Below are positions 16,215-63,867 of a stretch of 64,000 bases of DNA, piece by piece (the first letter of the stretch is position 1; every line of letters starts with the position of its first letter). Origin of the DNA: Apostichopus japonicus (taxonomy: Eukaryota; Echinodermata; Holothuroidea; Aspidochirotida; Stichopodidae). A program made the position numbers and the translations under genes. Under the pieces are notes generated by a model. The model made no database searches. It was not told where the DNA came from and saw nothing but the letters and a program-made list of their open reading frames with translations. The stretch is taken from the NCBI RefSeq assembly GCF_037975245.1, contig NC_092568.1, positions 34,008,501 through 34,072,500 of the forward strand, in the 5' to 3' direction.

Positions 16215-17512
16215 TTAAATCAAATCAAATCTTTATTATTTCATTATATTATTATTTATATTATTATAATATAATATCATATAACATAATTATAATATCA
16301 TTACATTATTATTTATCTTATCTTCATATCTTATCTCCTCATTTATTCACGATTATTAAACATGTATGCGGTACATCGGATATATTTATAGTTCTGATAA
16401 CAACATAGGTATATCATCTGAATGATACAAAAGAATTATTAACATAATGTGAAAATTGATTCTGAATTGAGTATTTCTTTTTCTCCACTTATACCGAAAT
16501 ACATGTCCAGAAAATCATAGATGATAAAACAGAGGTTATGTCAAGAGTCGCAAAGTTCATTGATTGAATGAGAAAAACAAGTCCTTAATGCCATATATTT
16601 TCTACGAGCAGAGCTAGTAGAGTTTCGCTTCGAGGCAATGTGCTTCTCAACGTTAAGAATGAATTTCATTTTATAGAAGAAATTGTAGCAGTCAGGCTTA
16701 ACATTGTTTTGATTACAATTGAAGATGAAGTATTTGATGTTCAGGATAAACAAATTCAATGGGTCGTAACCTGTTACCAGTTTACCGAAGAAAAGATCAT
16801 TTTTTGAGAAGATAAACTGTCTACCCAAAAATTTCTGTTCGCAATCTAAAAGGAAATCAGACGTCACATGACAGGACCAGAATAAATGTTCAATAGTTTC
16901 CTCTTCAATATTGCAAAATGTACAGAGTGGAGAAGCCGCTATTTTTATTGAATTTAAAAGCCGATTGGTTCCTAAGATGCGGTGTAAGAATCTGAATTGG
17001 AAATATTGTATTTTTGCTCCAGAAAGCGTACGGGAAGGCACCTAAAATATCACTAACCAATCGTTTTGAGAGAAGTCAAAGGTAACGCTCCATTTAGAGC
17101 AGGCTTTTGGCTGGAGTGTAATACAGTCTATAAGGCGAGGATAGACTACTTGTGACAATTTAGAAATGCTAGACATAAGATTGACAAGGTGATCTTGCTG
17201 TTCCTCGACGCCGTTTTCTAAACTGACAGAATCTTTCCAACTTCTAGGAATTGCAGATATGATCCCATGAAAACAAGTAAAAAGATACCTTAATATTTTA
17301 AGTTAGGTTAGAAAAGCATTGAAAGCATCTGGCAAAAATATATCCTTAACAAACAGTAAACCGGCAACGTGAAGTTTTTTGTCACAAACAATGTTATTAT
17401 CAATTCTAATAAAATGATTATTCCAAAGGATTTGATCACCAAAGTGATCCGAAGGATTCCTAAAGGTAACATTACTCCAAGCCATGCAAATTTGCTTAAT
17501 GAAAATATTTTT
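16215..17512 (-). pseudogene. L1-clade LINE, ORF2 3' part and 3' tail
   Basis: Read on the minus strand, 17590-17303 encodes KNIFIKQICMAWSNVTF and ILWNNHFIRIDNN. The frame 17041-16541 encodes the C-terminal domain: KIQYFQFRFLHRILGTNRLL, then the Cys/His motif CTFCNIEEETIEHLFWSC. These are typical of the end of L1 ORF2. A stop at about 16543 precedes a 3' UTR, and the AT-rich tract at about 16215-16340 gives AATAAAGATTTGATTTG on the minus strand, consistent with the 3' tail. The element continues upstream at 18453-20522 beyond a CR1/L2 insertion. Several frameshifts make it non-functional. Confidence 0.9.
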
Positions 17513-18452
17513 AGTTGATGTTGCTCCGGAAGCACGGAATCTCGGTGCGTTGATGGACCGACACATGTCGCTCCAATCGCATGTGAACAAAGTGTGTCGC
17601 TCTGCAAGTCTAGGGATATCAAAGATTGGTCGTATAAGGAAATATTTAGTTCGGCCGACTGCTGAACGACTTGTACACGCCTTCGCAACATCTCATCTCG
17701 ATGCCAATAACAGTCTTCTCTATAGCCTACCAAATTCTGCCATTGTCAAGCTACAACGCGTGCAGAATAGTGCAACTCGAGTTGTCCTGGGTGTAAGTGG
17801 TAGGGATGTAAACATAAATGCCTTGCGAAAGAACGAGATCCACTGTGGCTTCCAGTGAAGGACCGCATTGTGTATAAATTTCTATTGCTTACTTACAAGT
17901 CACTCAACGGTCTCTTCTCCTGCTTACATCAGAGATCTTCTCGCTGCTTACACCACGGGACGCTCGCTCCGTTCAGCATCGCAAGCACTCCTCGTGGTCC
18001 CAAAAACCGTCTCAACCAACTATGGAGATCGCGCTTTCTCGGTCGCTGCACCGAAGCTTTGAAACGACCTACCACACGACATAAGGCTGCCAAATCTCTC
18101 GCCATATTTAAGAAAAGTTTAAAAACACATCTTTTTAGTTCCTCTACGTGATTTTGTCACTTTTATATACTCGAGGTTTTATCTAGACTGTTACTTTGGC
18201 ATAACTTTTTTTTAATGTGCATATCCTTTGTTTTATAGTTTTGTTTTATAGGTTTTGGTCTGTTTTATAGCCTTCTCGTGTTTTAAGATTTTTGTGTTCG
18301 TATTTTTCATACTGTTTATTTTTCGTTTTTTTTTTATTCCTTTTGAGTTCTCTGTCTTTTTGTTTCCATTTTTTAGGTTTTGTAAAGCGTCTAGAGGCCT
18401 TTTGGTATTTGGCGCTATATTAAGAACTTATTTATTATTATTATTTTTGATA
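17513..18452 (+). mobile_element. 5'-truncated CR1/L2-type LINE inserted in the L1
   Basis: Plus-strand frames encode the C-terminal end of a CR1/L2-superfamily reverse transcriptase: NLGALMDRHMSLQSHVNKVC, KIGRIRKYLVRPTAERLVHA, KLQRVQNSATRVVLG, then after a frameshift at about 17857 VKDRIVYKFLLLTYKSLNG, YGDRAFSVAAPKL and KSLAIFKKSLKTHLF. The 3' end is GGCGCTATATTAAGAAC followed by (TTA)n, a usual L2/CR1 tail. L1 sequence resumes on both sides with codons joining as SCI-KNIF, and TATTTTT at both edges looks like a short target duplication. The minus-strand frames here are shadows. Confidence 0.9.
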
Positions 18453-20522
18453 CAGGAAATACCCTCGACATGAAAATTACATTTGAAAAGCAACTCTTTA
18501 CCGAACGGCGAAAGAGAGGAATGAAAAAAGAGCGTCCAATACCTAGTGTTGGCATTATTACAATAACGCTTGACCCATGAACTTTTAAGAGCTTCCACAA
18601 AGCTGTGAACATGTAATATTTTTAAACCTCCCTTTTCAATTGGGTTATACATAGTAAGTCTCTTAACTTTGTCAGGATTCCCGTTCCTAATGAAGTCAAA
18701 AATAATGCTTTGGATTTTATTAATAAAGTTTTTGTGGGGTCTAGGCAGAACCTGAAAAAGGAAGACGAGTTAGCTGATTGCAAAAGACTTCACTATTGTG
18801 TTTCTGCCAATAGGTGTGAGATCACGCCCATTCCAAACTCTAAGCTGGTGTTTCAGCCTAGATAGCTTCTGCTCATAAGAGATCGTTACTATTGTGAGTG
18901 AAGTTGATAAAAAGATACCTAATAGGAGAGTTAGTAATCAAAATATTGAATTCACTGACATGAGCTGGGTTATTTGAAATGAAAGAACCCAGGGGAAGAA
19001 ACTGGGATTTGCTGAGATTAATTTTGAGACCTGATGCTAGTCGAAAATTCTCTAAAGTATTCAGCACCTTAACAGTGCTGTTGCGGGTACCGTCTAAAAA
19101 TAAAGTGGTGTCGTCGGCATACTGCAGTACTTTAATCTCCCGCCCAAATATGTTTATCCCCTTGACCGTGTTGTCACAAATAATTTTCTAGCTAAAATAT
19201 CTGCACATAGAATAAAGAGGTACGGGCTAAGGGGACAACCTTGCCTTACTCCTCTCTGAATAGGGAAGAAACCTGTCGAATGACCATTCTTTAGAACACA
19301 GGAAGAACTACCTGTGTAGAGTGTTTTGATCCAACGACGAAAACTGTTCCCGAAGTTGAAATAAATAAGAGTGTGGTCAATAAAATCCTAATCGATACAA
19401 TCAAAATCTTTTCAAATTCAATAAAGAACAAAAGACCCGGAATGTTATTTGTGGTAGTGTGATCGATTAGGTCAAGCACAAAACGAATGTTTTCCCCAAT
19501 AAACTTATTTTTGATAAAACCACTTTGGTTATCCCCAACACTTTTTGTCGACGACCCGTTTTAACCGGTTAGCTAATGCTTTTGCTCCTATCTTGTAGTC
19601 AGTGTTAAGTAGACTAATATGCCTATAGTTAGCTATAACATTATGGTCTTTATCCAGTTTAGGAATTAGATTAATGACCCCTCTATTTTGCTCACAGGAT
19701 AATGAATGATGATCAAAACCAAAATTCACGAAATCGACAGCAGGCTGACCAAGAAGAGACCAAAAATGTCTATAAAACTCAGCAGAGAGACCATCACTAC
19801 CAGGAGATTTACCGTTGGCCATTGAGCTTAAGGCTCTATGACATTCATCTAAAGTAATGGGCCCGTCGCAAGAACTGGGGTCCGATTCCTCAGAGTGAAA
19901 GTCAGGCATATCTCTAATAAAATATGAAGGATAACATTGTGAACGAGAGTATAAAGTACTATAAAAAAAAACCTTTTCACGAAGCAGTTCTCTACTGTTG
20001 GTGGTGACATTGTCCCTGTTCATATTTAAGCTAAAAATGCTGTTAATTGCCTTGTTGCGCCTTTCTAAATTCAGAAAATATTTAGTGTTTTTTTTTTCAC
20101 CAGCCTCAACCCAACAAGCTCTCGACCGAACAATAATGTCATGAAGCTTGTCATGATAAAAACCTTTTAACTTATTACGGGCATTATCTAAACTTTGACG
20201 AATGGCATCAGAGTGGTTTTCATACAACTCTCTTTCCAGGTTGGAGATACTGCGTTAAATTTCGATTTCGCTTTTACGTGTACTTTTAGCTATTTGTTTG
20301 GCATTGAATAGTTTTGGAGCGAATGACATATTTGAGGTTCTCCCACTCTGCGGAAGGGTTTAGAGAACGTGTGTTGCGAGTAACAGTAGCAACTAGATTT
20401 TGGATTAGGTCGTTATACGCAGAATCAGCTAAAAGAGAGTTGTTAAACTTCCGATACACTGGACCTCTCTTATCTTCATGAATTTGTATCGATAAAACCA
20501 CCATAGAGTAGTCATATTAAAG
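18453..20522 (-). pseudogene. L1-clade LINE, ORF2 reverse transcriptase region
   Basis: On the minus strand, from 20504 downwards: MVVLSIQIHEDKRGP (end of endonuclease and linker), then 20227-19529 with the N-terminal RT region (ACWVEAGEKKNTKYFLNLER, MANGKSPGSDGLSAEFYRHF, GVINLIPKLDKDHNVIANYR). RT core follows in shifted frames: GVRQGCPLSPYLF near 19235 and an intact YADD at 19110-19121. Then SGLKINLSKSQFLPLGS (19067-18873) and PIEKGGLKILHVHSFVEALK (18652-18428). Catalytic YADD is preserved, but frameshifts and stops are frequent. The 5' end at about 20520 falls in the endonuclease tail, and the rest of that domain lies at 24179-24750. Confidence 0.92.
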
Positions 20523-21797
20523 AGGAGGCTGAAATTCAATATTGACGATTTTACCAACAAGACTACTAGGCCGTCTTCCATGGCTTGCTTTTCGCTTCCT
20601 TTGCTCACTTTTTAGGGGAATGGAGTTACTGCAGCTTAAAATGCGGAGAATAATCACGAGATTCATAATTTGCTATGCCAACAACACGATTGTTGCACAT
20701 TACTCTGAAAACGCAGTAAAACTGTAGTATTTTAATTGATTATGGGACATGCCTGATTTTGGGCAACTGACCAATCATAGGGCTGCTTCTCGTGACCTCT
20801 TGACCCGGCCCAAACTTATTTTGTTTACATCTACTGTAGCTAGCCTAGGTCACGCACTGTCTGCATATATAGAGCCTGTAGCCCATCCATTGTTCCAATC
20901 TATCGGAGATGGCAGTCCAAATGATCAGAAAACGTTTTGACAAAGGTAAAAATAGAATAACTGTAGAAGCCAAAAAATCGTAAAATATATGTGTTCACTT
21001 GTATGATATTGTAGGCAAATGAGGTCGAAATTTCTGTTGATTAAGTACGTAGGCTTACGCTGCAAAGTTGTAACGCTTAACGCCGGTTGGGATTGCGATA
21101 TTGCATTAGCCTACATTATATATCTGCCTGACCAAAGTCTTCGTTGACGTTAGACTTAGCAAACAATATATATATGCCTATGCTTGGCCTAGTTTATGAT
21201 GTCCTTATAATACGGACGATTGAACGTTGGTACATCCAATGTTGTTTATTCCTAAATTTCTAATCGAGGAATTGCTGCAATGAGCAGGGTTGACTTTCGT
21301 ATCACTTTGTATTGGCGTAGGCCTACGCCTAACGTTAGTTGTTGCTTCTTTTTAGTTTTAACATAATACATAATCAGAACCTTCCTTGGCATGGGCAGGC
21401 CTACTTAACTGATGGTGACGTTAGAACGTAGATGGTATACATGCTCAGACTAACCCTAGTGATTAGCCTTCTGGCATAGACTTATCCTTTTGCCAAATTT
21501 GCTTGATTTATAATTGTAATTACTGTAACTGTACATTATATGCAATAAGGCTAGGCTCTGCACAATTCAATAAGAGACAAAGACGTTTTGATAAAACAAC
21601 CAAGGTTTGTGCAAAGTACCATAAAACCAGGATCTGTTCAAGTGCATTGCACTTGGCCTAGCCTCTATCCTATGGACCAGGAAAGCAGCCACTGTGCTTC
21701 ACTACTCCAGGGTCTCCATATCGACTAGCTATGGTTATGAATGCGTGAACTAGTAAAGTTCCAGCTTTATGTTTTATTTTGCTATTTTCTCTAACAG
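20523..21797. other. Noncoding; possible 5' region of the CXC-type pseudogene
   Basis: No clear gene. At 20909 an ATG in purine context opens MAVQMIRKRFDK, followed by AAAGGTAAAA, a possible first exon with donor, but its phase does not join the next recognisable exon. TACTGTA at 20832 and 21531. Confidence 0.3.
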
Positions 21798-45090: not shown

Positions 45091-47603
45091 AGGGGCGTAT
45101 CCAGGATTTCTAACGGGGGGGGGGGGGGGCGCGAATTACTATCTAAGCGGAGCGCCACCATCGGTTGGCGCATAGCGTACAAGAAAATTTCGGGGTTTTA
45201 TAACCCCCAGATCATCGAAATGGCACTTCTCGGGCTTAAAATGACCAACCAAATGTACACTTTTGCCTGAGAACCAAGAATTTTCCATTAGTTTTTTCCA
45301 CCCATAACCTTTATGAAGATTGTCATCAGTCACATATCATGTTCGACCTTATCGCATCTCCTGTGGAACATTGCTTTTGTAAGTAATTCTACGTTGCGGT
45401 CCACAATACCCGTGCGCACCATTTTTCAAGGTTTTAGGCCTATTATTTGTTCAGAATTTTAAAAATTCACAATTCTCGTAAATAGATTCACTTCAAAATA
45501 TGTTGCACAAAATTTCATCTATGGACACCAATATAGAAAAACCTCCTTCAGGTAGCATTCGCCCATTAAATGCCCCATTGACAAACACACTAAATCACAA
45601 ATGTAATGTGGTCTTTAAGTCTAGATAGAAGTTTTCACCAGCTAAACGCTACCCATCACCGGATAGCTGACAAATTGGCCTTTCATGGCACCATCAATTT
45701 TCCGTATTATGACCATGTAGATTTTTTTGCTATCCGAGCCGGAAGTTTTCGTCACTTGTAAACAAATCTCTTCACTCGGTGGTAAAAAAAAAAAATCCTA
45801 CGCTGCTCCCGGGAGGCCTAAAGGGGTCTAAAATTGCCTCAACTGACCCAATTTTCTCACCATATGTATATCCATTCATGCTCTTCAACATGAAAGCCAC
45901 AAAAAAACTATATCATGATTGATAACAGGTCACAAAAATGTTCTCCTGCTGCTTTTTTGGCACTTTTCATGAAGGAGAACAATCGAGTGGATGGATATAG
46001 ACTCTACTGTATGGAGTATAATGCAGACTACTGTACAAATACAGTTATCAAACCTAAGCATAGGAGCCCATAGGAGTTGGCCCCACATTGTTTTCATTTC
46101 GAAAGACAGTTTCAATTCCATTACACACTGAAGGCTTCGATTCTCTATCTGCCTTCAGTTAAGGGAAGATCTTGGGATTTTCATCCCTAGATATCGCTAG
46201 ATATTGCTATATAGATGTCCATACAGTACAGTGCCCTTTGGATTTTTCGGGGCCTGATCTTGGGAAATTGCAAAAAGTCGAGAGTGGTCTCACTCCATGT
46301 AGGTCAGTGCACGACCTCTAGACGTCACTAATACACTTCCCAATCACTTGTTATCGATGAAGTGGTGTGTTGCCGGATTTTGTCAAGAGGTCTTGGTACT
46401 ACGGGCGAAGGTCATTAATTAAGTTTCGTAACTCATCGCGAAGCGATGAGAGGGGTGGGGCGTAGGGTTATGGGCGCGCGTTTTCATGCAGATGGGAACA
46501 ATCTCAAGAAGTGGTGGGTGCGTCCTCCTTTTTTTCTTTTTCTTCTTTATCTTTTCCCTTCCTTCCTCTCCTTCCTCCTCTTTTCCCTCCTCTTTTTCTT
46601 ACCCGGGGGGGGGGGAGCGGCCCCAACGCCCCCCTGGATACCCGCCTGCATGTGAATCAGTACAACGAATGATTGAAAACAATACATAGGTTATTGGAAG
46701 CTGATATCTAGCATTTTCTGGGGTTTTATTCTGGCAAATCTAGCCAGGCCAGGTCATGACGTCATTCCGCGCCAAATTTGATATCTGTTTTTACATTATC
46801 ACGTACTGCATGTCGGATAGACGTGACTTCCTACTACGTACTACTACGAACTGCACTAGTGAGATTGTTTTACTACAATATAACTGGAGTTGGTGATTTT
46901 AAACGTCAAACAAAATAAAAGCGACTGTGAGTGTTGTCAGTACATTTTACCGCTTGAAGGCACTATGTTAATTAACGTTAAATTGACTCAGTGATAAAAA
47001 ATAATGGCTGCTTAGACCTAGCCTATACATAACATAGTATTGCATACGCAAACAATTAGGCTTACTAATACGTACTAGCGAGCATATTGCCACACAGTAC
47101 TAGTAGTAGTACTAGCTACCACCTGTAGCTGTATAGCCTGGCTTAGGCTACGTAAACTTAAAAAGAATATTGTGTAGCATACAATTAGTTTACTTTTCGT
47201 GTGAGGTTGAATAGTGGTTTGTATACCAGGGAGGAAGCACCCCTCCTTTTTTCTCATGTCACTGACATGCATTGAGCTGTAGCCTATAACAGTTTTGTAG
47301 GTAAGCAGCTAGTGGTATTACATACTACTATTACTAATCAAAGTGGTAGGCCTACTGTACAGTTAAAGACGAAAAGAGATGTCAGTAACATTATAAACGA
47401 TCTTTCAATTTCACTGTGAGTGTCTACTTCCCTCAAGCAACCCCCCATACTCACTGTTTTACCGTTCATTTGATAGTATATATGATCCTTCCTCCTCTTT
47501 TCCTCCTCTTTGTTTTCCTTTTTTTCTTCTCTTTTTTCTCTCCTCTTTTTCTTACCAGGGGGGCGTGCGCCCCCAATCCCCCCCCCCCCTTGGATACGCG
47601 CCT
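45091..47603. mobile_element. Composite DNA element, AGGGGCGTATCCAGG ends (2.5 kb)
   Basis: The left end AGGGGCGTATCCAGG (45091) and the complement of AGGCGCGTATCCAAGG (ending 47603) are followed inward by G/C runs. GACACTC flanks both sides exactly (45084-45090 and 47604-47610). Just inside the left end is the ACTATCTAAGCGGAGCGCC unit shared with the 32257 element. A pyrimidine tract ending TCTTTTTCTTACC precedes the right end at about 47555, and a second similar right end sits at about 46600-46650, implying nesting or an internal duplication. No transposase frame. TACTGTA at 46015 and 46029, TACAGTA at 46222. Confidence 0.6.
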
Positions 47604-47610
47604 GACACTC

Positions 47611-50017
47611 GTACTAGTTCATAGAAATTTCAAATTGCAAATTAAAAGATACATGAAAACGATGATATACAGCTCGAGGAATGTGTGAAACCGGCTTCAG
47701 CAACAAAAGACTTATAAATGGGACGGCTTCTGCATTTGAGCAGCGATCTCCTAGTGGACGGTCTCTGAGTAGACGGCGCCTCACGTTGACCCTTTAGTGT
47801 TCCCATACACAGCTACAGTAGTTTGGGCAGTACTCCCTCTATTTTTATATACTGCCCCTTGGCACCAAATCATATCAGCTGACCAGGAAATATATAAACG
47901 CGGGAAAACTGGACGATTTTAACTGTACAGCACTTACTTCCGTCAGAGGGCCAATAACAACAATCACAAGCATTTTGTTATTTTTCGGTCAGTTTTTAGT
48001 TGATTATTTGTATCCCAATTAAAAATTTTGAAAGCTTGTTTGCACCTATACTTATCGAATAGATAAATTCAATAATCATGATAGAAAGCAAATGGTCTTA
48101 TGTAGGCTAACAGTAACAACACTAACAGTAGCACGGTGTAACACTTTATGAATATGAGGAAACAAAAGGCTACACTTAGACCGAGTGTAGGTTGCAATTT
48201 AGGGTCTTAGGCCGGCTACAGTAGCTTAACCCTAAAGCGCTGTTAAGTTGGGATTCGCCAATAATAAAGTTGGCTCAAATTGAATACATCAACACGATGA
48301 ATTTATGTTTGTAACCTAGTTTAAAAAAAAATCACCACTTAGCCTAGATTTTTGTTACAACTATAGTAGTCTAGCCTTGTACAATAGTACCACTACTAGT
48401 ATTGTGGTAGGCCAAACAGGTTAAACGTGAAATTGTTCATAGTACTACAGTACAGGTATAAGGGCCTTTTTACAAATTTTATGGATATTCCAGGGATGGG
48501 TCTTAACATACAGGCATATTTCTGGGGGACGCATTTCATTTGGGGATGGCACATAAAACACAGGGACAGCCGCGAAATCAGGGACGTCTAGTCCTCTTAG
48601 TCTTACTAAGCCAATTCTATGTAAATTCTTTGGTATAGTTTAGGCTACTGACACATGATACTACAATTGCTTAGAATTAGGTGGGTCTAGATAGCTTTGA
48701 CACAGTGGTAGATACGTGACTATTGTCCCTAGGCCTAGCCTGTATACAGTAGGCTCATCAAATTTGCAACGCGACTATATAGCGGCAATTTTCCCTAGCA
48801 TATGCCGCTTGTAGACATAATCTACACGTAAATATGTGGTCACAGTGCCTAGATAGCTTCAACATGGTACTGTGGATACGTGACATTTGCCTCTAGCAGT
48901 ATGGTAAATGCTAAATATTGGCTGTGAATAGGGTTACCCTAGCTAAGTTAGTGTTTGTATGAAAACACATGATACATATTTACTAATTATCCAAAAAGTC
49001 ACATCTAAATCGTCACTTAAAGACACAATCTATACTAAATAATGCTGTTTAGGCTTGACAACTAATTAAATTGTCACGTGACATCAGCAGTTACCCCCAG
49101 CACTCAGCTTTCAGACATCATCAACATATAATGTACATGGTCACAGTGCCTAGTTAGCTTCCAGTATATAAGTGACAACTGTCTCTAACTGATCCGTATT
49201 AGCAATTTATTGGTCATGAAAACTGTTAACTTAGTTTGTGTATTGACAACACAAGAACAAGATCCATACTAATTATCCACAAAATCAGTGTCTGTAAGTT
49301 TATAGACACAATCTACACTTAACATTGCTCCCTCGCAAATTTCAAGTACTGTATGATCAATGTCACAGAAAGCTTCTTAGGGTGGGCCTAGTGCAGGTTT
49401 TGATGTAACTGTTACAGCAGGCCATGGGGATGCAATTTCAAGAACATTTTCATACAGTAGCTTTATTTCTAGTAGAGCCTAGGCCCCGAAAGCTTCTTCC
49501 AAGATCCAATGTAATGGTGACATTGCAGGCTATAATACAGTATTTACAGTACTGTATGCAATTTGTTGTCACAGATAGTGATTGTTGTCAAGTTGTGGCA
49601 GATTAGAAATGGCACTAACAGGTAGGACTTAGTGGAAGTCATATGATTTCACAGATTCAATGCACATGCAAAAACAAGCAAAATGTTGAAAAATCATGTC
49701 CATTCCAATGCTTGTAAATTCGTTTTTGGCCATCTACAGTAGGCCTACAGTGCAGATAGTGTTCTGGATTTGCTCATCAAGAGTTGGTAACCCTTATTCC
49801 AAAGAATATGGGGTTGTGCTGATAAAGTGAAACACAGTAGGGTTTACTGGGAAAAGAATGCTTGGATTCAATGCTAGTTTTTGGAAATACTTCTGTGGTT
49901 GGCTGAAAACTGAATTTTTTATTTACTATATGACTTTGTATGACGTAATAATTTTATAGGGAGGAATACATAATTAATAATTCAACCAAGCAAAGAAAAG
50001 AAGGATATCAAGCCATG
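47611..50017. other. Noncoding; upstream of gene 2, with degenerate repeats
   Basis: Degenerate units share AGATAGCTT, GATACGTGAC and GACACAATCTACAC (about 48675-49330). TACAGTA/TACTGTA is dense: 47814, 48217, 48446, 48745, 49347, 49453, 49536, 49545, 49550 and 49735. No gene supported; the open frame at 49424-49606 looks like chance. Confidence 0.45.
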
Positions 50018-50025
50018 ATCTAGAT

Positions 50026-50428
50026 AAGGGTTGTCCAACCTACGGCCCGCGGGCCACAGTCCGTCCCGCCGCAGGGTTGCGTCCGGCCCATCAGAGATGC
50101 TCTACGGTGCGAAATTTTAGTGAGCAGATTTATTGATAACAATTTGAAGCTATATACTGTAATCAATCATTCGAACCTTCTGGGTCCAAAAAACTGCATA
50201 CAGGTCAGTTTGTGTGACACTCTCTCGGAGGAGGGGGGGGGGCGGCTGAACTTTATTCATCTGTTTTATCAGGAAGGAAAATAAGTCAGTGCGCTCCACG
50301 CGCAGTGCTCACATTTTGTTGCCTTGGGCTTCGGGCAAAAATCGAAAAATCGAGCGTAGGGTTCATGCGGCCCCCTCCATCATAATCATTCCATGTGGCC
50401 CTCCTCTGCAAAAGGTTGGACAACCCTG
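50026..50428. mobile_element. hAT MITE (403 bp) with decayed 8-bp duplication
   Basis: Ends AAGGGTTGTCCAACC and the complement of CAGGGTTGTCCAACC; flanks ATCTAGAT (50018-50025) and ATCTACAT (50429-50436), 7 of 8 equal. The subterminal GGCCCGCGGGCC palindrome is characteristic of a widespread hAT MITE type. No coding capacity. Confidence 0.9.
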
Positions 50429-50719
50429 ATCTACATGTAGATATTTCAAAATTTTACTGTAGTACCATGGCAAATCACACAAAAATGCCCACAATCTTAA
50501 ATGTTGCTGAAAGATAAAATTGAGCAATTTGAGTTTAAATTTATCATCAATTGAGCAGATAAGTTCTCAGTTTGTGTGCTGGAAAAACTAATATGATCTA
50601 ATGCAAAAGTTTAAGCCCTACATGTCTTCAAAATTTCACCTGACTACCTTAGTATGTAATATTTTATGTATAACAAGTTGTCTCAGAGAATTGTTCAACT
50701 ATTTGTTGCTGTTTGACAG

Positions 50720-50791
50720 GAAATGGATAACAAGAAAACAGAAGCAGGTGAATGCACAGAAGAAAATGGGAACTCTTTTGATGAGAGACAA
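50720..50791 (+). CDS. Gene 2 first coding exon candidate
   Basis: Acceptor CTGTTTGACAG, donor CAA|GTAAGT. An ATG at 50723 opens MDNKKTEAGECTEENGNSFD ERQ, acidic and polar. The longer open frame across it (50601-50795) is in a different phase and ends right after the donor, so it is rejected. Confidence 0.55.
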
Positions 50792-53700
50792 GTAAGTCTT
50801 TAATTGAAAATGTTTATAAGCAAACATTATATCTGAAAACTTCCCACTTTAATAACTTTGATAACAAAATTTGTTTACATTTACATATTAACATTTTGAA
50901 AGTAGGGTAGCAGGGCTTGACATACAGTGCAGTACCAGTACAGCACTACAGTACCAGTGGTCCAGGTAGGTACAGTACTGTACCAATAATGTTCAGAAAG
51001 AGTCATCCGACATAGTTCGGTCCAGGTACTGTATCAAAATTTGTTGTGTCTCCTAGCATCCACTTGTGCTAAAGTTGTCATCTGCGATTCTGCGATCTGA
51101 TGGCCTACTGTACACTAGATTTGACAACAAGGTTCAGTCACATTAGTTGGTAAGTTTGCTTGGTTTCTTGAGTAGACTGTGTTCTGACTTCTCCTCCACA
51201 TTTGTTGATGTGGTCATGTTTCCAGCGTAGAAAGGCCTTGTTTGCCAGGGATGGGTTGCACTTAGCTAATACTGGGGCCTCGTTGTTTGGTACAGTAGGA
51301 TCTTGAATTACTCTGTGGAACAGCTATGTTTAAACTTAATTGGGCGGGGCGATGAGGGCAGGCATAAACTTTGATAAGGATAATGTGTCGGGTGGAGGTG
51401 CTTATGGGCCTTTTGATCACAAGGAAAGTGGTAGTAATAGTTCTAACATTATCAGGAGGCGATGCTAAGGTACAGAGTTTCAGGGATAAGCTGAAGATTG
51501 TTCTTATCAATGCTAGAAGTATTTTAAAAATTTTGCTGAATTTGCTGTTCTTCGTCAAGATCTGAATCCTGATGTGCTTGGTATCACAGAATCTTGGTTA
51601 AGGGATGACATTCATAGCGCTCACTGCTCAGGTTTCTTACCCAGGGTATGTTGTGTATCGTCAGGACAGGAGGGATACTCATAATGCAATTGGTGGGTGA
51701 GTTTTACTGTATGTTAGGGATGATACAGTATTGTAAGTGTTGAGAAGTCTCAGTTACAAGGTTCTTTTGTCAATTCTGTCTGGTGCGAGGTATCCACAGA
51801 CAACTTCAAGAGATCCAGTGATGTTACTGTATAACTATTGGTGTTGTTTGCTCCTAACAGTGGTGAAGATAACGATGGCTTGCTGTTTGATTCAATTAGA
51901 AAGGCTGCTAAAAGTGATGTTGTTATAATGGGTGACATTAATTTTCCTGACATTAATTGGATAGATGGTTCCAGTGGTAGGAACGGTAGTACCTTTCTAG
52001 ATGTTGTGCAAGATTGCTTTTAACATCAGCATGTTACTTCCCCTACGTAATGTTGTTGATTTGACAGGTCTAGGAAAACTAGCGATCATGATATACTGTA
52101 CTAGCTTCTGATGTTGTTTACAAGGTCGTAAATTATTCTGTTAGGTCTAGATTTCCAGAAGACTTTGATAAAGTTCCCTATTAGCATCTTTTACATAGGC
52201 TGAAGAGTGTGGGTGTCAATGGGAATTTACTGGCTTGGATGAAGAATTGACTTGGTAATATTTAGGAAACAGAGGGTGGTAATTAAAGGCTGTGCTTCTT
52301 TTTGGCAGGACATTACTACTGTAGTGAGTTCCAGAAGGGTCTGGTTTGGGTCTCTTGTTGTTTGTTGCCTATATATGACATTGACGGGATATTTTGTGTA
52401 GAGCCAAGAAGTTTGCTGATGACAGCAAACTGTATTCTGAGGTCTCTTCTAAAACAATTCTGAGAAATTTCAAATGGATAATGGATTTGGGTAAGGTTTT
52501 TTCCTGGTCTCAGGGATGGCAAATGCTTTTTAATATTGGTAATTGCAGGGTGATGCATATTGGTAGTAGTAACCAAAAGTATACTGTACCTACACTCTTA
52601 GGTTGGTGAGGAGTTGCAGGAGGTCTTTGTTGAAAGAGAGCTAGGTACAGTATCTACATTGACTTACCTCTGCAACTTCTAAACATTGTCTTGAAGCTGC
52701 TAAAAGAGGTAATAGGGTTTTAGATATGATCAAGAGGAAGGTCAGTGTCAGAAAGATGACATAGTTGTTACTGTAGGCTTTATAAGCAGTTGGGTAGGCC
52801 TCATCTGAAGTATGCTGTGCACTGCAGGCCCGCTTGTAACCCATATTTTGCTAAGGATAAGAAAGTGCTTGAAAAGGTCCAGAGGAGGGCTAATACTGTA
52901 GGATGATTAGTTCCTTAAAGAGTGTTCCTTATTACATGCAGTTACAGCTGCTGAATCTCACCACACTGGAGCTTAGGAGGTTACATGGTGACATGATTCA
53001 GGTTTTCAAGATTGTGTATGGTTTTGACAATTTATCCTTCACTGACTTTTTCATGTTTGCTAATAGTAGGTGTACCACAGGTCATTGTCTTAAACTCCAG
53101 AAGTTACAAAGTAGGACTTATTATATTCGGCTTACCTTTCATTCTAATAGGGCTGTGAATGAGTGGAACAGTTTACCAGAGAAAGTTGTACTTGCAAGTA
53201 GTGTCAATGAGTTTAAGAATGCTTTGCACAGCACTTTAAGCATTGTAATCAGATCTGATTTCTTTTGTGTCTTCTTTTCTTTTCTCTCCTATATGGTCAT
53301 TCATGGGGATTGAGTGTCCCTCCTGATCCTTTTTTTCTACTACTGTAAGCTAAACCAAACTAAGCCTAAAAAATGGCACAGCAAAAATGCCATTTGGTCG
53401 GTTCCAATGGTGAAGGGCATCATGGCAATAAGAAGGGTATGACGGCAAAAATGAGTCCGAGGAAGTGCACTGAATAGGATTTTTTGTCTACGCAGCACTA
53501 TGTCATTTTGGGAGCAGTAAAAATATCTTATTGGACCATTTTATTTTGGAGACAGCAAAAATACAAGTCTCAGACAAGACATGATTGTTCTTTTTCCAGA
53601 ACGAAAGTTTGTTTACAGTTTTATGAAAAAAAAATCATGGCAGTGAATGACAACATTTCTCAAAACTCCATAAAGTTTTGTATATATTGCGATTGATGGT

Positions 53701-56700
53701 ATGTAGAAAATGCCTCATAAAAGGAGGTTTTTGGCCACCTTCAGTGTACTATATTGCTATTCTGACATGAAACATTGTTTTCTTCATGTCTTTGTGTTAA
53801 AGAACTTCATACTGTCCTATTGTTGTTAATGTGTGACACTGAAGCCTGGGCGGCTATCACTATATTCGACTGTTTCAGGGTAACAACAAACTTTTTAAAT
53901 TAAGAAATTACTATTTAATACAAGTTTATGAATGCTTTTAAACACATACAGTAACATACTGTGTTTAACCCATTCCCTGTGATAAATGGAGTAAGTTTGC
54001 ATATGGAGGGAATGCTCCGTGAACAACCTCCATAAAAAGTCAATGGGAGTTTACTGTAATTTCCCTCGCATACAGACAACTCCAACAAAATCTCCCCAAG
54101 ATTGTTGGGTAACACTCTATACTTAGTGTAACGTAGTGTACATAGACATGTACAGCACTGAAAGATAGCTAGAGCACTGACATTTAATGTAGTACTAGTA
54201 TCTCATAATATGCAGATAGCTGTCATTGCATTTTCTTTTTTTGTCAAGGAGTCATCAAACAGTGATATGACGATTATTTGTGTGTCCGGAAGGGACAACA
54301 ATGTTTACAGTCACTGCACCTTCATATATCCTCAAGGATGTGAGTATTATACTACTGTAGATTTACTTTTGTTCTAAACTTTATGTAACCTATTAATTTG
54401 TTGAACATGCAAGCTCTGGGCGGCCATGTGGGCAAAAATTACAACGATGAAACAAGTAAACAAGAAAGAAAATTGAAAAAGAAGAAATATGCAAAATGAA
54501 ACAAACATATTTGATATCAATGTAAAACTTGTGAAAGGCTGCACTTAAAAAGAGAAATAAAAATAAAAATACAATCATGTAGCGAAACATATCAAACACA
54601 TGCAACCGAAGGATAAACATTGAGCACCAGGAAGAAAAAATTGATCCACTTGTCAGAACAAAAAGATCAAATCACCACCATAAAAAAATAGATGTATTGA
54701 AATCAAAAGTTCATTCGCACGAAATCAAAACGAACGCTCACACGCAAAACGAAGAAGTGCTCAGAACAAAAAGAACAAGCGTCACCATAAAAACGAAGAT
54801 GTAACATAATCAAAAGAACATTGGCACAAAATCAAAATGAACGTTCAAGTGAAACGAACGAACGCCTATTAACTAAAAAGGACAGATGCTGCTGTTTTGT
54901 TTACTTTGACTGTGTTATATTACATTAAAATGTAGTTACGACATCTTGTATGCACGACATTGCTGTCTTATGTAAGTTCAGGCCTAGTTAGGCACTTGAT
55001 ACCTAGATGTGAACATATATACAGTATTGTTCACATATATACAGTACATACAAATGACATAACATTGTCTCTATTAAAGCCTATATGTGCTTAAAATACT
55101 GTACACTGTATGCATGTATGTATGTGATGCAAATTTATTTCCAGCACTTGCACAATAGCTCAAACAGTGCAGGTTGTTTGAACATAAGAGTAACTGCAAA
55201 ACTCCAACTCTTGGGTCTACTATGGAGAGACAGGAGCTGTGTTGAGTCAAAAGGGATACGAGAATATACAAATACATTGCCATTGAAAGACTCAGTTGGG
55301 ACAAGATCATCCAAGTGCACTATGAATTTGATTGTGATTTCCCGGGTACTCTGTGCAAAATGCAAACCTTGGTTCGATTTCATACTTACTAGAACACTGT
55401 GCTGGCCTTCCAAGGCCATTGGCAGACCTTGAAATATCTCTTTAGTAAACTTTCGAAAACTATTTACCATCTAAAATTTATCAGAACCCAGTTCTAAGCG
55501 TAAAATTCTTGCAATGGCAATGTCTTTTTAACTATATGTCCGATTTAGTTCATACCTGATACGGTGATGTCAGTTGATGATAGGCACATGGTCATATAAT
55601 CAAGAATTCATTCTCAGTATTATTCATGAATGGGCGTGGCTAGATTGTTATCACAGTGAAATGTAAACATGATATCTCGAAACCAATCAGTTGAATCAAG
55701 GTCATACTGGGTAGGTTACAGTAGGTACAGTAGATGCCTCGTGATGTGTAATGGTGGTTCCCATCTCATGAATATCAATGAGTGGGCCATGCCTGACAAA
55801 ATTCTTAAAATTTCAATTTATCTTCAACAGTACTGTATGTATGATGTAGTTTATGGTATTGTGATGTAATAACATGTTAAGAATATATGCTTTTTACAAC
55901 AACAAGTTTGACCTCATTAATATTCATGAGTTTTTAATGTAATCATTATGCTAGATTGGACCAACCTGTCAAATGTCATGGTATACATAAAATGACAAGA
56001 CACCTGTGATTAATAAGCCCTGGAAGAGCAGGTCTTCCTCATATTATGTGATAATGTAGCAAAACTATTAAATCAATGAAATGTATTTCCCGGTTTCAGA
56101 TGACCCAACCATTATTTTGGTGGCCAATCACATGTCCTGGGTGCAAGTCTGGCAATGGGAGGGATGTTGAACGAAATGGAGGTGCACCTAGCTTCTAAAC
56201 ACAGATTTTGGTGGGAGAGATTCTAGTAGAAAGATTCTGCTAATCTGGTATAGAGGGAAAATGTGGTATGAACCAGTGAGAGCCTTGTACATAATTGTAA
56301 ATAGTAGTGTTAGCTGTTTGTCAGTTTACACCTCCTACTTCTGGACAAGCAGAATCATTGAAGGCTGGTACTGTTGGTGCATTTGAGGGAAAAGGAAAGT
56401 TACAAATATTTGAGGGAATTGGATCCCAAAATTTGGTATCTAAAGTTTTTTAGTAGGTATACTGTACATTGACTTAACTTTTGTAATGAGATGTACAGTA
56501 AGTAGTGTCTGCAAAGTAATGACAAAATCTCTTGACCTTACCTTTATCGTATTTCCTCTAATTACCATTAGACAGAGAGCTAACACCTTCTCCTTCTTTG
56601 GGACTAGCAGGATCATCGAAAGCAGGTAATGTTGGTAAGTTTGAGGACAGAGTAACGGTAAGAGGTATTGCAGGTGAATACTGTAGCTTGAAAACCAGAA

Positions 56701-59700
56701 TTTTAGCTATGAAGTTGTAGCTAGGGCAGTTTTATTTTGGTGGGCACGCAATTAAAGTTCTGTTAAACGTTGTTACGTAGCAGACATGCCTTAGTAGGGC
56801 AGCTAGTGCCAACAGAAGTTCCTGTGTTTTACAGTTTTTTAGGGTTAAGGAACCCAGAATTTCAAACCTTTTTGCAATTTGATAAAATATGCAACTACAG
56901 CAAGCATCTTATCAAAGGTACATAATAAGTTCTGCTCAGGACAGTGTAGCACGCAATCAAGGAGTAGTCTACATTGAGAGACCATTTGCAAGAAAGCAAT
57001 TATCCAAACAAGAAATATGTATGGCATATGGGGCTCAAATTTAAAGATTGCCGGAGGCGACCAAAAATCATGTCGGACAACTAAAGCCCTGCTTAGGTTG
57101 TCCGACGGACGACTAGCTAGCTTATTTGCCGTAAGTGTTCGACACTTTGAGCAAAACTTGGAAAAAACCCTATTCTTTGAAATAAAAATCCATATTAGAA
57201 ACAACGGAAGAAATAAATCACATTTTGCTACTATCCATAATGTGGGGTAAATATAGTGTTTGCACGGGGTATCCAGGTACCTGCCCGACCAATACTTCCC
57301 GGTTCCTAATTTATTATCTAAATCCTATACAAAGTGTTATTTTTTTGGCAAACCGATGGTTAGGCAAGATTTTCCCATTCACTTAGTTTGGTGTTAGGCT
57401 ACCATGTGGTCGAAGATAATAGCAATAACGAAAGTGTACTATGGATGTTTTATAACTGCGTCACAATTTCAGCGATATAAACGGATGAATAGGCTAGATT
57501 ACCCCATTGACTTAGTGTGGTGTTATGCAACCATGTGGTCGAAGATAATAGCAATAATGAAAGTATTCCATGGATATCTTATAACTGCGTCACAATTTCA
57601 GCGATATAAACAGATGGTTCGGCTAGATTTCCCCATTGACTTAGTGTTAGGCTGCCATGTGGAAAACATTGAAAGAATTCTCACAATTATTTATTCATTT
57701 GTTTATTTCATATTTAAGAAAGATGAAAAAGAATTTTACGAGATGTTACTAATGGATTATAGACTGGATAACTAAAAAATAATAATCGCAAGTTGCATTT
57801 TTACTAAACGTTTATTGCAAATGCCATCAAATTGCGTGAATCGCGCAATCTCGCGGCTACTGCTAACCCAGGGCCTGCATAATAGATAGTAGTAGTAAAT
57901 ACTGTTTAAAGCTAAATTGGATATTTGTATGGTCTGATCCAATAGAAGCGGCGAGCAAACATAAGCAGCAGCGGCAGTGCGATGTTAGTAGTGATGTTAA
58001 TTATATGAAGTTATTATCAAGTTAATGAAAGAAACAAAAGCAAATAGAAATTATTGAGGACGGTTTTATACCTTATCTTACACCTACGTATTTGAACATG
58101 AAAACGTGTCAGTGGAGAATATAATTCATTTATTATAGCATCCAATATGCATTTTCTTGAAAATCGCGATACACAAAGGTAGATATAATTGTTCCGGGTA
58201 CCCGAATACCCGACTGGTAACGGCTCTTGGGTACCCGGTTCCCGATTTTTGGACCTGTGTAAACACTAGGTAAATCCTTCACTTTAGCTGTATGTGCATA
58301 CTGTACATATGCCCTTATGTGTGCTTCGTAACACTACAGAGTACAGAACCTGGCGGCCGCGACCAGGATTGCTTTCTACCTCACAGCCGCACGCACGTAA
58401 GACTTGCGAGTTGGAGTACAACGTGTATGCAGAACTATACTGTGCATGTGGGCATACCTTATGCTCGTTTATGTTGCTGCATATATGTGCTGTATACCCT
58501 GGGTTTACCCTCTGTCTCTGGAAATGATTACAGAAATCATTTTTCACTACCAGAGAATTCCCTCAACCCAACAAAATTAATCATGAACAGTGTCATACAC
58601 CACATAAAATGTCTATAACCCTACACTACAAGTTCTGTCCAAGATCTGTCAATCTCCATAAGACTAGTCACTAAGAGTAAGGTCGGTAGACTAGGCCTGG
58701 GTAGCCTAACATTACGGTGCTCGATACATTTGAGTATTATTTATGTACTACTCTTGTGGAAGGCGCGCCATTTTAAAAATCCAAGTGCTTTCATTTCGAC
58801 AAACAAAAGATCCTTCGGACAACCAAATGTGAAGGCAAGGTTGTCCCGAGGACAACCTTAAAATGAGCCCTGGGGCCGGCCTGGGTATGTGGCCATTGTA
58901 GTAGAATGGTCTGCTACAGTGCTACAGATACAACATTTATTATATACCAAACATACCTGGAGGTCGGGATTTGACTTATAGATGTATTTATTAACAGATT
59001 CTGGAAAGTGGTATAAACCAGACACTTATCAACAATTGCACATCCATTGTGACAAGTGTTTAGAATTCACAAGTACTGTACTTCTGGTAATGATAATGTG
59101 ATCTTTTGAAGTAAAAAAAAAAATTGTTTTTGTCCGAATATTTGATGTATGTCCTTGGAAAGTTCTTAATTCTTGTGGTTTTGAATTATTTGGAAGGTTA
59201 TGTTTTTGACTTGTAATCAATTTTTTTTTCATGACTGTCAGTACAAATCTTCAATTTAAAAAATTTAGGTTATGTAGTGAGCTATAGCTGTAAGCCTATT
59301 GTACCTACAGGAAGCTTACTTGCCAAATTTGTTAACTGGTAAGGTATCCTTACCAGTTAACAAATTTTGCAAGTAAGCTTCTAAATTAGGATGGAGGGTT
59401 GGTGAATTAGATGGTGTACACCATCTAATTCACCAACTTCCTATCCTAATTTAGCCATGACCTACAAGCATTAATCTGCTTTTGTTTAACAGATACAGTT
59501 AAAGGAGTATTTGTTACCGTGTTGCTCTTCAAAATTATTCATTTAATTTTAGTTAACTTATTTTGAGCTTGTAACTTAATGGGAATTTGCTATCGAAAGT
59601 GAAAACAAATGTAATGATCTGTTGATCTATTGACAAAACATGTTTCATTGTAATTACAGTTAAGGAACCTAAAAGAAGAGCACCTATACAAAAAGAAGAT

Positions 59701-60157: not shown

Positions 60158-62614
60158 AGGGCAGGTCCAAGCTACAGTATTGTATCCCTAGAAGCCAAAT
60201 TTCAAACTTTACTGAAGCACCCTAAATGTGGTGTCATGTTAAAGCTGAATTATTGAAATTTCAGATTTTCATAATTTTTTTCAATTGGTTTGCCTATTCG
60301 AACAATTACAGCCGGCTAATTTGCATAAATTCAAATTGCAGTGTGACGTATGGGACATTTGGAAACCTATTTCCCTGCCAGCAATATGAACTTATTGAAT
60401 ATCAGTTATGTGAGACATGATACACCCTTCCTTCCAATAAGTTTGGCATATTATGTTTGGGGGTTCATCAATTAAATATGCTAATTAGCTAGTGTCCAAA
60501 TACTGATGTCCCGTACGTCACAATTTTGGTCACTTTTTTCAAGTTTTGATATGGACGAACAATTTTTTTTGGGTGATATTCTGTAAAGTTCTATTTAAGA
60601 ACATTGTTCAACAAAATCCATCCCAAAAAAAGTGAAATAATATTCACAGCAAATCTAATTATCAAAATTAACGGGACAAAATGTGACGTACGGGACATAG
60701 TGTGGGGGAAACCCTGTATTTATACATAATGAACATGCATGGGCTCCAATGGGGACCTCTACTGGAAACCTTCCAATGCTTACAAATTTATTTGGTTGAA
60801 AGATGGTAGTTGTAACTTATAATCCCTGCATGCCTTGCCTGAAGAGCACATCATGGCTTCAAATAAACTATTGACCAATGACTACCAACAGCCCAGGTGT
60901 TATTAAATAAACTATCTGGAAGTCAATTGTGTGTGTGTGTGGGATACAGAATCATTTACAATGCTATTCATTGAATAGCAGAATAGTATTCAACATTGAC
61001 ATTGAATGAGGACGACTTAAAGTGTTGAGTTTGCATTTCAACATTTCGTAGGCCTATTGTGAAGTGTGACTATCATGACTGTGCAACTATGTTATTGTGT
61101 CCTGAACTTAGATAGTAGACATTGAGATTTTTAGTTACAAGTGTAGAGTTTCGCTCGTCCAATTTTTGCAGAGGACAATCACTCATGAGTTTGTTCAATA
61201 ATCAGTATAAGGTCTATAGAGTTTTCTTTGTTGTACTAGTTTCATAGTTGGACATTACGTGGACGTTACTGTGGACATTTTGATATGTTTTGAATGGGAT
61301 GGATCATATTTCAACTTAAGGGTCAATAGTGGGGAGTATGATACAGTGTTGTACAGTATATACCGAAACAGTTTTTGCATCAAAACTTTGCATCTTGAAT
61401 CATTTGTGGTCTATTAAACAAAGCTAGAATTGATGTTATGAGTATTTGGTCTGGTAACCAGTATTAGGTCTATAGAGTTTTCTTTGTTGAACTAGTTTCA
61501 TAGAGGGACATCAGTGGACGTTACTGTGGACATTTTGGTATGTTTTGATTGGGATGGATCATATTTCAACTTGAGGGTCAATAGTGGGGAGTATGATACA
61601 GTGTTGTACAGTATATACCAAAACAGTTTTGCATCAAAACTTTGCATCTTGAATCATTTGTGGTCTATTAAGCAAAGCTACAGTAGAATTGATGTTATGA
61701 GTATTTGGTCTGGTAACCAGTATTAGGTCTATAGAGTTTTCTTTGTTGTACTAGTTTCATACACAGACATTATGTGGACGTTACTGTGGACATTTTGGTA
61801 TGCTTTGATTGGGATGGATCATATTTCAACTTGAGGGTCAATAGTGGGGAGTATGATACAGTGTTGTACAGTATATACCAAATCAGTTTTGAACCAACAT
61901 TTGCATCTTGGATCATTTGTGGTCTAGCAAAGCTAAAATTGATGTTATGAGTATTTGATGAATGTGTAGAGTAGATTTATACTTTACGCATTCCATGTTT
62001 TATGTAGTGGAATGATCTCACAAGTACAGTCACTGCTCTTTTCGATCCCCGAAAGAAGGAAATATGGCATGAAATTACCAATGACATTGTTCTGGCATAT
62101 CCAAATTAATGTTTTTATGTAGAAATCAGCTTGTTATGGTATATTCAGGAATGAAAATATGAGTTTTCATAGGCAATTTTTATTTGGACAAATTGTCGCG
62201 TACGTCACATGTCCCGTACGTCACAGGACAATTTTCATTTGTGTAATCACTGAACTGGAATGGCTTCATATTTTTTTCTAATATGTTACAGCTTATCCCT
62301 TGGAAGGTTAGGCTATTCACTAGTTATAACAGCTTGATCACTGCCCTCCTAATTTCAGAGGGATTTCAGCTTTGCTCTTTAGTAAAAAAAACACAAAATC
62401 CTCTGGTCCCGTACGTCACACTGTACATTAATTAAGATGGGACCTAATTAAAGCAAGTGTAGTAAATCTTCATGAGTTTGTTATAAAGTAGCAGCAATAA
62501 CAAATATGAAAACCTGAAAAAGTGTCTGGAAAATAGATTTTTTATAACTTTTAGACACATTTAAGTCTCTGAAATGTCCCGTACGTCACAGTGCAAATAG
62601 CTTGGACCTGCCCT
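60158..62614. mobile_element. Putative DNA element with CCGTACGTCAC subterminal repeats (2.46 kb)
   Basis: A perfect 17-bp inverted repeat, AGGGCAGGTCCAAGCTA at 60158 and its complement ending 62614, encloses seven copies of TGTCCCGTACGTCACA (reverse at 60342 and 60682; forward at 60507, 62194, 62210, 62405 and 62575), three near the left end and four near the right. The middle holds a three-unit tandem repeat. No transposase frame and no clear target duplication. Confidence 0.65.
61210..61960 (+). repeat. Three tandem units of about 257 bp
   Basis: AGGTCTATAGAGTTTTCTTT starts at 61210, 61466 and 61725. Units are highly similar. Unit 2 alone carries CAGTA inserted after AAAGCTA (61679-61685), compared with AAAGCTAGAATTG in unit 1 and AAAGCTAAAATTG in unit 3. 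An open frame in unit 2 (61514-61726) is partly open in all units but has no support as a gene. Confidence 0.92.
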
Positions 62615-62683: not shown

Positions 62684-63867
62684 TAGTGTTTACACAGGTC
62701 CAAAAATCGGGAACCGGGTACCCGAGAGCCGTTACCCGTCGGGTATCAGGGTACCCGGAAAAAATTGTTTACCCTCGTGTATCACGATTTTCAAGAAATT
62801 ACATATTGGATGCTATAATAAATGAATTATATTCTCTACTGACAATTTTTTCATGTTCAAAAACGTAGGTGTAAGATAAGGTATAAAACCTTCTTCAATA
62901 ATTTCTATTTTTTTGCTTTTTTCTCTTTCATTAACTTGTTAATTACTTAATATACTGTAATTAACATTACTACTAACATCGCACTGCCGCCGCTGCTTAT
63001 GCTTGCTCTCCACGTTTATTGGATCAGACCATATAAATATCCCTTTAGCTCAGTTGTTACTACTTCTATCTATTATGCAGGCCCAGGGTTTGCATTAGCC
63101 GCGATTCGCGCAATTTGATCGCATTTGGAATAAACGATTAGTAAAAGGCCACTTGCGATTATTTATTTTAGTTATCCCGTCTATAATCCATAAACATGTC
63201 GTAAAATTTCTTGTCAGCCTTTCCTTCTATGAAATAAACGAATGAATAAATAATAATTTCTTCCACATGGTAGCCTAACACCACACTAAGTCAATGAGAA
63301 ATCTAGCTAGGCCTAACTATCTGTTTATTTGCTGAACTTGTGACACAGTTATAAGATATCCATGGAACACATTCATTATTGCTGTTACGTTCGACCACAT
63401 GGTTGCCTAACACCACACTAAGTCAATGGGGTAATCTAGCCTACAGTAGAGCCATTTGTTTATTAGCTGAAATTGTGACGCAGTTATACGATATCCATGG
63501 AATACTTTCGTTATTGCTGTTATCTTCAACCACATGGTAGCCTAACACCACACTAAGTCAATGGGAAATCTGCCTAACCATCGGTTTGCAATTTTTTTTT
63601 TGTAATCACACTTTGCATAGGATTCGGGTAATAAATTAGGAACCGGGTAGTATCACGTCGGGCGGGTACTTTCGTTATTGCTGTTATCTTCAACCACATG
63701 GTAGCCTAACACCACACTAAGTCAATGGGAAATCTGCCTAACCGTAGGTTTGCAAAAAAAAAAAAAATTAAATCACACTTTGCGTAGGATTCGGGTAATA
63801 ATTTAGGAACCGGGTAGTACCGCGTCGGGCGGGTACCCGGGTACCCGGATAACCCGTACAAACACTA
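62684..63867 (-). mobile_element. hAT-type non-autonomous element, copy B (1,184 bp, inverted)
   Basis: Ends TAGTGTTTACACAGG and the complement of TAGTGTTTGTACGGG; flanks TTTCAAAT (62676-62683) and TTTCAACA (63868-63875), 6 of 8 equal. Same internal units as copy A in reverse (ACCACACTAAGTCAATGGG). The outermost block (CACATGGTAGCCTAAC to the GGTACC-rich end) is partly duplicated at about 63530-63660 and 63700-63840. It carries TACTGTA (62953) and TACAGTA (63442) at places where copy A lacks them. Confidence 0.9.

Follow-up and report, generated by a model that had tools for sequence, protein, structure and literature searches.

TACAGTA/TACTGTA scars in the genome of Apostichopus japonicus, probable excision footprints of CAG-ended Tc1/mariner transposons

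Introduction

The question raised by this locus of Apostichopus japonicus is why a single seven-letter word, TACAGTA (or TACTGTA, its reverse complement), should be repeated 44 times within 10.7 kb. The window analysed here is a stretch of 64,000 nt on contig NC_092568.1 (C8:34008501-34072500 in our contig numbering), taken from a genome of 671.6 Mb in 35 contigs, and the dense field of the word, defined by counts and background models, lies at 46000..56700 (no strand is assigned to this field or to any single copy of the word). An earlier note, made from the letters alone, read the words as scars of Tc1/mariner elements, cut-and-paste transposons that had inserted at TA and since left. The comparisons described below show that eight copies of the word within a decayed retrotransposon are exact 5-bp insertions at TA, in the canonical form of the Sleeping Beauty footprint, and it is very probable that most copies are excision footprints of one or more Tc1/mariner elements with CAG-starting ends.

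In the proposed mechanism, a Tc1/mariner element with such ends would enter a TA, duplicating it, and at excision the transposase would cut three bases inside the element and leave CAG overhangs on both flanks. End joining would then pair these overhangs around a central mismatch, giving TA-CAG-TA or, once repaired, TA-CTG-TA, that is, an insertion of 5 bp. This course of cutting, overhang formation and mismatch repair is well established for Sleeping Beauty. The TAC(A/T)GTA footprint left by its excision is described in the available excerpts of two papers (PMC3432063, PMC4378557).

Abundance of the 7-mer

On both strands together the window contains 75 copies, against a mean of 10.19 (standard deviation, 3.22) and a maximum of 18 in 100 dinucleotide shuffles, in line with the earlier estimate of about 75 copies where about a dozen would be expected. 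The 44 copies between 46.0 and 56.7 kb (about 4 per kb) compare with expectations of 2.5, 4.7 and 7.4 under order-1, order-2 and order-3 models, the last of which is inflated because the model includes the motif itself; the earlier note had set 44 against about two, close to the order-1 figure, and the gap it had described was also recovered (no 7-mer from 15609 to 20831). Two or three of the 44 would be chance copies. Five other TA-core-TA words made with the letters C, A and G are found 4-10 times each in the window and 1-3 times in the region, against 75 and 44, and this enrichment of the CAG/CTG core only counts in favour of excision scars.

Two overlapping pairs, TACAGTACTGTA at 49545..49556 and again at 50971..50982, look as if one scar sat in the TA of another; 2.1 such pairs are predicted in the region if scars strike TAs at random. 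An origin of the cluster as a tandem repeat was rejected, since no listed array contains it, the word being present in some satellites elsewhere, and Rfam gave no match at gathering scores.

The genome was sampled with 19 ten-kb stretches at round positions (190 kb in all), in which the word occurs 129 times (range, 0-23 per stretch; 32.4 expected from dinucleotides) and the reversed word 55 times; leaving out two satellite stretches, 116 copies remain in 170 kb. The excess is thus genome-wide and not only regional, and the region (44 in 10.7 kb) exceeds every one of the 19 samples. An excess of about 0.4 to 0.5 per kb extrapolates to 260,000-340,000 copies in the genome, a rough figure drawn from 190 kb. 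In the mouse genome the two words are found at over 300,000 places in total, according to an excerpt of one paper (PMC4378557). As a separate observation, positions 1240-1830 of L015 are rich in TA and hold many closely spaced copies, as if a TA microsatellite had been struck repeatedly.

Empty sites in a decayed LINE and in other repeats

The ancestral state of part of the field can be read from a decayed non-long-terminal-repeat (non-LTR) retrotransposon, a long interspersed nuclear element (LINE), at 51350..53342 on the + strand, recognized by its reading frames and by other genomic copies. It carries nine 7-mers, a count that leaves out the edge sites 51291 and 53341, and its conserved frame is visible in pieces in a three-frame table. 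Judged by eye, the frame is switched by +2 (mod 3), as an insertion of 5 bp demands, at seven of eight of these sites; the remaining one, 52317, fits the expected change once a neighbouring 1-bp deletion is counted, and the ninth word, 51705, is read through in frame. The table had thereby predicted what was found in the alignment with a second copy of the LINE (L035, met in one genome sample, with 79% and 85% identity in two matched parts), in which eight of the nine words are a plain TA and 51705 is retained.

Three of the eight scars, each with a frame shift, are empty in L035 as the sole copy compared: TACAGTA at 51724..51730, TACTGTA at 51825..51831 and TACTGTA at 52094..52100, where the gap is split in the alignment and was read by eye. 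For the other five, more relatives are available. The LINE was located at 43 places, the window included, with 40 scored out of 2053 first-look candidates, and the comparison copies are 20 fetched from the other 42 places, mostly higher-scoring ones, plus L035. The insertion is absent from all 19 copies covering the TACTGTA at 52317..52323 (beside which lies the separate 1-bp deletion) and from all 21 at the TACTGTA sites 52582..52588, 52769..52775 and 52894..52900; at 52769, 20 of the 21 are empty and L047 has TA changed to TATA, and near 52894 L062 has a separate 7-bp insertion. At the TACAGTA of 52646..52652, 18 of 21 copies are empty, two are filled (L053 with TACTGTA, and L058 with TACAGTA plus TACTGTA at the adjoining TA) and one, L055, has a 3-bp insertion. 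An exact pattern search found this site filled, within relative-like flanks, on C10 (L053) and C11, with CTG in both. This TA, which has CAG in the window, was struck independently at least twice, with either core. Across the 22 LINE copies there are 45 insertions, of which seven are of 5 bp and six of these make TACWGTA (W being A or T); nine of the 45 insertion rows involve TACWGTA, including one 10-bp double scar. The contrary case raised in the earlier note, that the words are ancestral sequence, holds for the TACTGTA at 51705..51711, which lies in frame within TTACTGTAT in both the window and L035 and is no scar, and fails for the other eight, with many-copy agreement for five of them.

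The opposite polarity, in which the 5-bp differences would be deletions turning TACWGTA into TA, can be regarded as virtually negligible: slippage between the two TA repeats could produce them, and the two-copy comparison at 62953 (see below) leaves the polarity open, but the five many-copy LINE sites are nearly all empty, their filled relatives differ in core, and the filled state disrupts the LINE reading frame.

Other short insertions at TA were seen in the LINE, namely TA or TATA in copies L047 and L061 (five rows) and the related 3-bp insertion in L055, which may be footprints of zero bases or may have been left by a second family. In the window, TAGGCTA/TAGCCTA occurs 25 times against 5.9 expected, some copies lying in repeats, with AGGCCTA and TAGGCCTA also in excess, and is another possible class of footprint. 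Searches of viral contigs with the L1 and LINE proteins and of the genome contigs with the LINE had no useful outcome; a long footprint pattern had seven matches in viral contigs.

Outside the LINE, a tandem series of three 260-bp units has TACAGTA in one unit (61679..61685) and TA in the two others, and the TACTGTA at 62953..62959 is carried by one arm only of an inverted duplication (82%), the other arm (57277-58268) having TA, a comparison of two copies that is open to either direction. Satellite units on C1 (L010, L011) differ by exactly the same 5 bp at TA. Sites 15039 and 39016 differ from their relatives by substitutions, and at 63442 the relatives vary in several ways, with no clean insertion. 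Not every copy of the 7-mer is a demonstrated scar.

A 13.6-kb Tc1/mariner element

The earlier note had predicted an element with termini starting with CAGT, and one is present in the genome. Two matches to PF13358, on C1 and C17, sit in stretches with 99.9% identity over 13.6 kb, and on either side this similarity breaks off abruptly (the second-site copy is at C17:26968187-26981823). Including both TAs, the element is 13,637 bp long. In both copies the homology ends at TA on either side, with different flanks, as a TA target-site duplication would have it, and both ends read TA followed by CAGTACTGATTTCGCTTAACTCCCGTTGAAA, mutually inverted; these 31-bp inverted ends begin with CAG (33 identical bases including TA) and are accompanied by looser subterminal repeats. 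The 363-codon open frame of the element matches DDE_3 (PF13358) with 48.9 bits (cut-off, 28.6), shows a D..34..E spacing (counted by eye) and scores 27.7 bits, under the cut-off of 31.5, with the Tc3-type helix-turn-helix PF01498. Compared with solved structures at E 0.01, the frame matches a single one, the catalytic domain of Sleeping Beauty SB100X (E 1.3e-21). By these sequence criteria the element belongs to the Tc1/mariner superfamily and its transposase appears to be intact; the two 99.9% identical copies at different TAs point to recent movement, and the element may be transposing at present. Its interior contains a dozen TACWGTA and, on the other strand, a 445-codon frame of low complexity.

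The right end of the element gave 328 first-look candidates; the 40 of these that were scored are 95-100% identical, and all 40 reach the terminal TA. One right-end copy is found at C8:34108820 (36 kb past the window; distance to the scar field, about 44 kb), and the 960 bases fetched from it are homologous throughout (90%). PF13358 has 45 matches in the genome, several in open frames of 327-384 codons, and at least four further, divergent transposase lineages with open frames are among them. None of the 45 matches is on C8, and none of 12 selected open reading frames of the window shows a transposase in Pfam, in agreement with the earlier statement that no Tc1/mariner transposase is visible there. 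A second transposase type forms a tandem array at G000:C9:37375603-37464739, with sixteen PF13358 matches, mostly about 5.7 kb apart, and a 384-codon frame.

Two other candidates for the source were rejected. A miniature inverted-repeat transposable element (MITE) with TACAGT ends in the window was one, as no inverted-repeat pair up to 3.5 kb was found; the other was the family of L012, L022 and L033 that begins with TACAGCTGCGG, since its similarity crosses the TA in L012 and L022 and it is therefore no element end there.

The presence of the large element also bears on the alternative that the earlier note had offered, namely that a very short motif which spreads by itself, or a bias of repair, adds CAGTA at TA with no transposon involved. 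The insertions far exceed the known CAG-ended elements, both cores are present and the window yielded no element end, as such a process would allow; nevertheless, this genome contains a young multi-copy element that has the required ends, is flanked by TA duplications and encodes a transposase like that of Sleeping Beauty, and the CAG/CTG core is what its ends predict, so that we consider a process of this kind very unlikely.

Age, clustering and target preference

The scars between 46.0 and 56.7 kb are probably young, because one-mismatch variants of the word are not in excess there (41 against 38.9 expected), whereas some excess is seen outside (182 against 138 at 1-46 kb and 36 against 28.6 at 56.7-64 kb). 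The LINE copy of the window diverges by 10% from the column majority and the other copies by 0.5-7.1%. In the common part of the LINE, 5 scars accompany about 115 substitutions in the window copy, compared with 5 scars and about 780 substitutions summed over the 21 others, and the region is thus several-fold hotter for scars, in a comparison of small numbers in which the choice favoured younger copies. The cluster at 46-57 kb would have arisen by local hopping of copies in the vicinity or through a target that is favoured at this place. Among 196 distinct pairs of flanks, a count that includes chance copies of the 7-mer, CTAG is favoured 3.44-fold, ATAC and CTAC are also favoured, ATAT is at 0.52-fold, and GTAA and TTAA are disfavoured.

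Between 48000 and 56000 the CpG ratio of the window is low (0.36-0.42), and candidate exons can be made out by eye around 50717-50795 and 56101; the field of scars may be part of a gene body that is transcribed and methylated. These data could also be accommodated by a functional binding site or conserved motif under selection in the region, since the words cluster within a possible gene body and purifying selection would likewise yield few one-mismatch variants. Youth, however, accounts for the few decayed copies just as well, the flanks are unconserved beyond a weak preference adjoining the TA, and the excess is genome-wide. Eight of the words were added as 5-bp insertions to a dead LINE and are missing from nearly all relatives examined, and on these empty sites a binding site was rejected as extremely unlikely.

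Two further features of the window were noted. Positions 50024-50420 look by eye like a miniature element of hAT type, bounded by the inverted ends GGTTGTCCAACC...GGTTGGACAACC, and runs of C are frequent, CCCCCCCC being found 96 times, far over expectation, with CCCCCCC 296 times in the 190-kb samples.

Weight of the evidence

The excision scars proposed in the earlier note are supported by eight of the nine LINE sites, by the paralogues at 61679 and 62953 and by the CAG-ended element. Several observations weigh against them. One of the nine LINE words, 51705, is shared with L035 and hence ancestral; three of the eight LINE scars depend on that single copy; and 35 of the 44 sites of the region are without a tested empty copy, 46029 having been aligned once and found filled in that relative. 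The 7-mers at 61352/61607/61867 and at 33908/37964 are common to their copies within the window. In the paralogue comparison of the samples (109 motif sites, the majority in satellites L010, L011 and L019; what follows covers the sites displayed), the non-satellite 7-mers of L013, L020, L027, L029, L030 and L033 are shared, substituted or otherwise gapped, and none is empty, which has slightly lowered our confidence. The spaced pair of the word, found 633 times in the genome against 117 for the reversed pattern, is swollen by satellites, some of the pairs lying in tandem arrays. A simple Viterbi frame model with general amino-acid frequencies recovered the expected shift near 51724, 52769 (with three of four penalties) and 52894, no more than three of the eight LINE sites, and placed further shifts elsewhere; the question was settled by the empty copies instead. 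The window lacks the full fill-in product TACAGCTGTA. A search of about 280 kb of sequence for inverted-repeat elements with TACAGT ends and a length of up to 4 kb gave none, short elements of this type thus not being abundant there, and scars outnumber candidate right ends by about 1000 to 1 (extrapolated). The target preference (CTAG up, ATAT down) also differs from that of Sleeping Beauty.

The last ratio bears on which elements were responsible. We infer that the scars were made by the 13.6-kb family, perhaps along with other families whose ends begin with CAG, and we infer in the same way a germ-line rate of their formation. That the footprints come from Tc1/mariner elements, but mainly from one or more other CAG-ended families, is a tenable though less probable alternative: the ratio of scars to elements is high, at least four further divergent PF13358 lineages have open frames, and C8, the contig of the nearby right-end copy, carries no PF13358 match. 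Nevertheless, the 13.6-kb family is the sole one whose ends have been seen, these ends fit the scars, and it is young and has a copy about 44 kb from the cluster. Excision of CAG-ended Tc1/mariner elements, whichever the family, remains the explanation we favour for most of the 7-mers.

Comparison with known systems

Sleeping Beauty is an element of about 1.6 kb with long inverted repeat/direct repeat (IR/DR) ends, and it prefers AT-rich palindromes around the TA, ATATATAT. Neither trait is matched here, where the element has 13,637 bp and a 31-bp inverted repeat and CTAG is the favoured target. The TA target, the TAC(A/T)GTA footprint (as given in the excerpts cited above) and the closest solved structure, SB100X, are shared, although the scars described here are natural, inherited and dense. 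Tc1 of Caenorhabditis elegans likewise inserts at TA and leaves a footprint, but with a core of 2 bases and not CAG/CTG. The Stowaway MITEs also have TA as their target. Natural insertions and excision footprints of this DNA transposon have been used in the phylogeny of the Triticeae (PMC1925063), a likeness that is drawn from the title and the opening of the abstract of that paper, whereas here the genome has an overall excess of one footprint word. For ZB, a Tc1/mariner transposon of zebrafish, an excerpt of PMC7913693 gives footprints of zero to three base pairs, similar to those of Sleeping Beauty and Frog Prince, and the change of TA to TATA in L047 would suit a zero-base footprint; these transposons were assayed in cultured cells, and the same excerpt describes no natural genome-wide field of scars.

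Significance

Both the footprints and the superfamily of the element are of kinds already known. Excision footprints have previously been described from assays and engineered animals, as far as the excerpts of PMC3432063 and PMC4378557 go, and no description of a natural genome-wide scar field was found among the titles and abstract openings listed, a scope mostly outside subscription papers. The present case offers a natural genome in which footprints are dense enough to be counted with no transposon remaining in place, together with a Tc1/mariner element that is young, unusually large and known at both ends, and it makes testable how often cut-and-paste elements move, as opposed to multiply, in a natural germ line. 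For the genes of the species, the scars are a source of frame-shifting 5-bp mutations. The chances are about even that a Tc1/mariner family, very large and low in copy number, hops much more often than it multiplies and has produced 5-bp scars by the hundreds of thousands, with up to about one scar per 20 substitutions in hot regions, which would make excision a major class of heritable mutation in Apostichopus japonicus. If this is true, the scars would constitute a readable record of transposon traffic.

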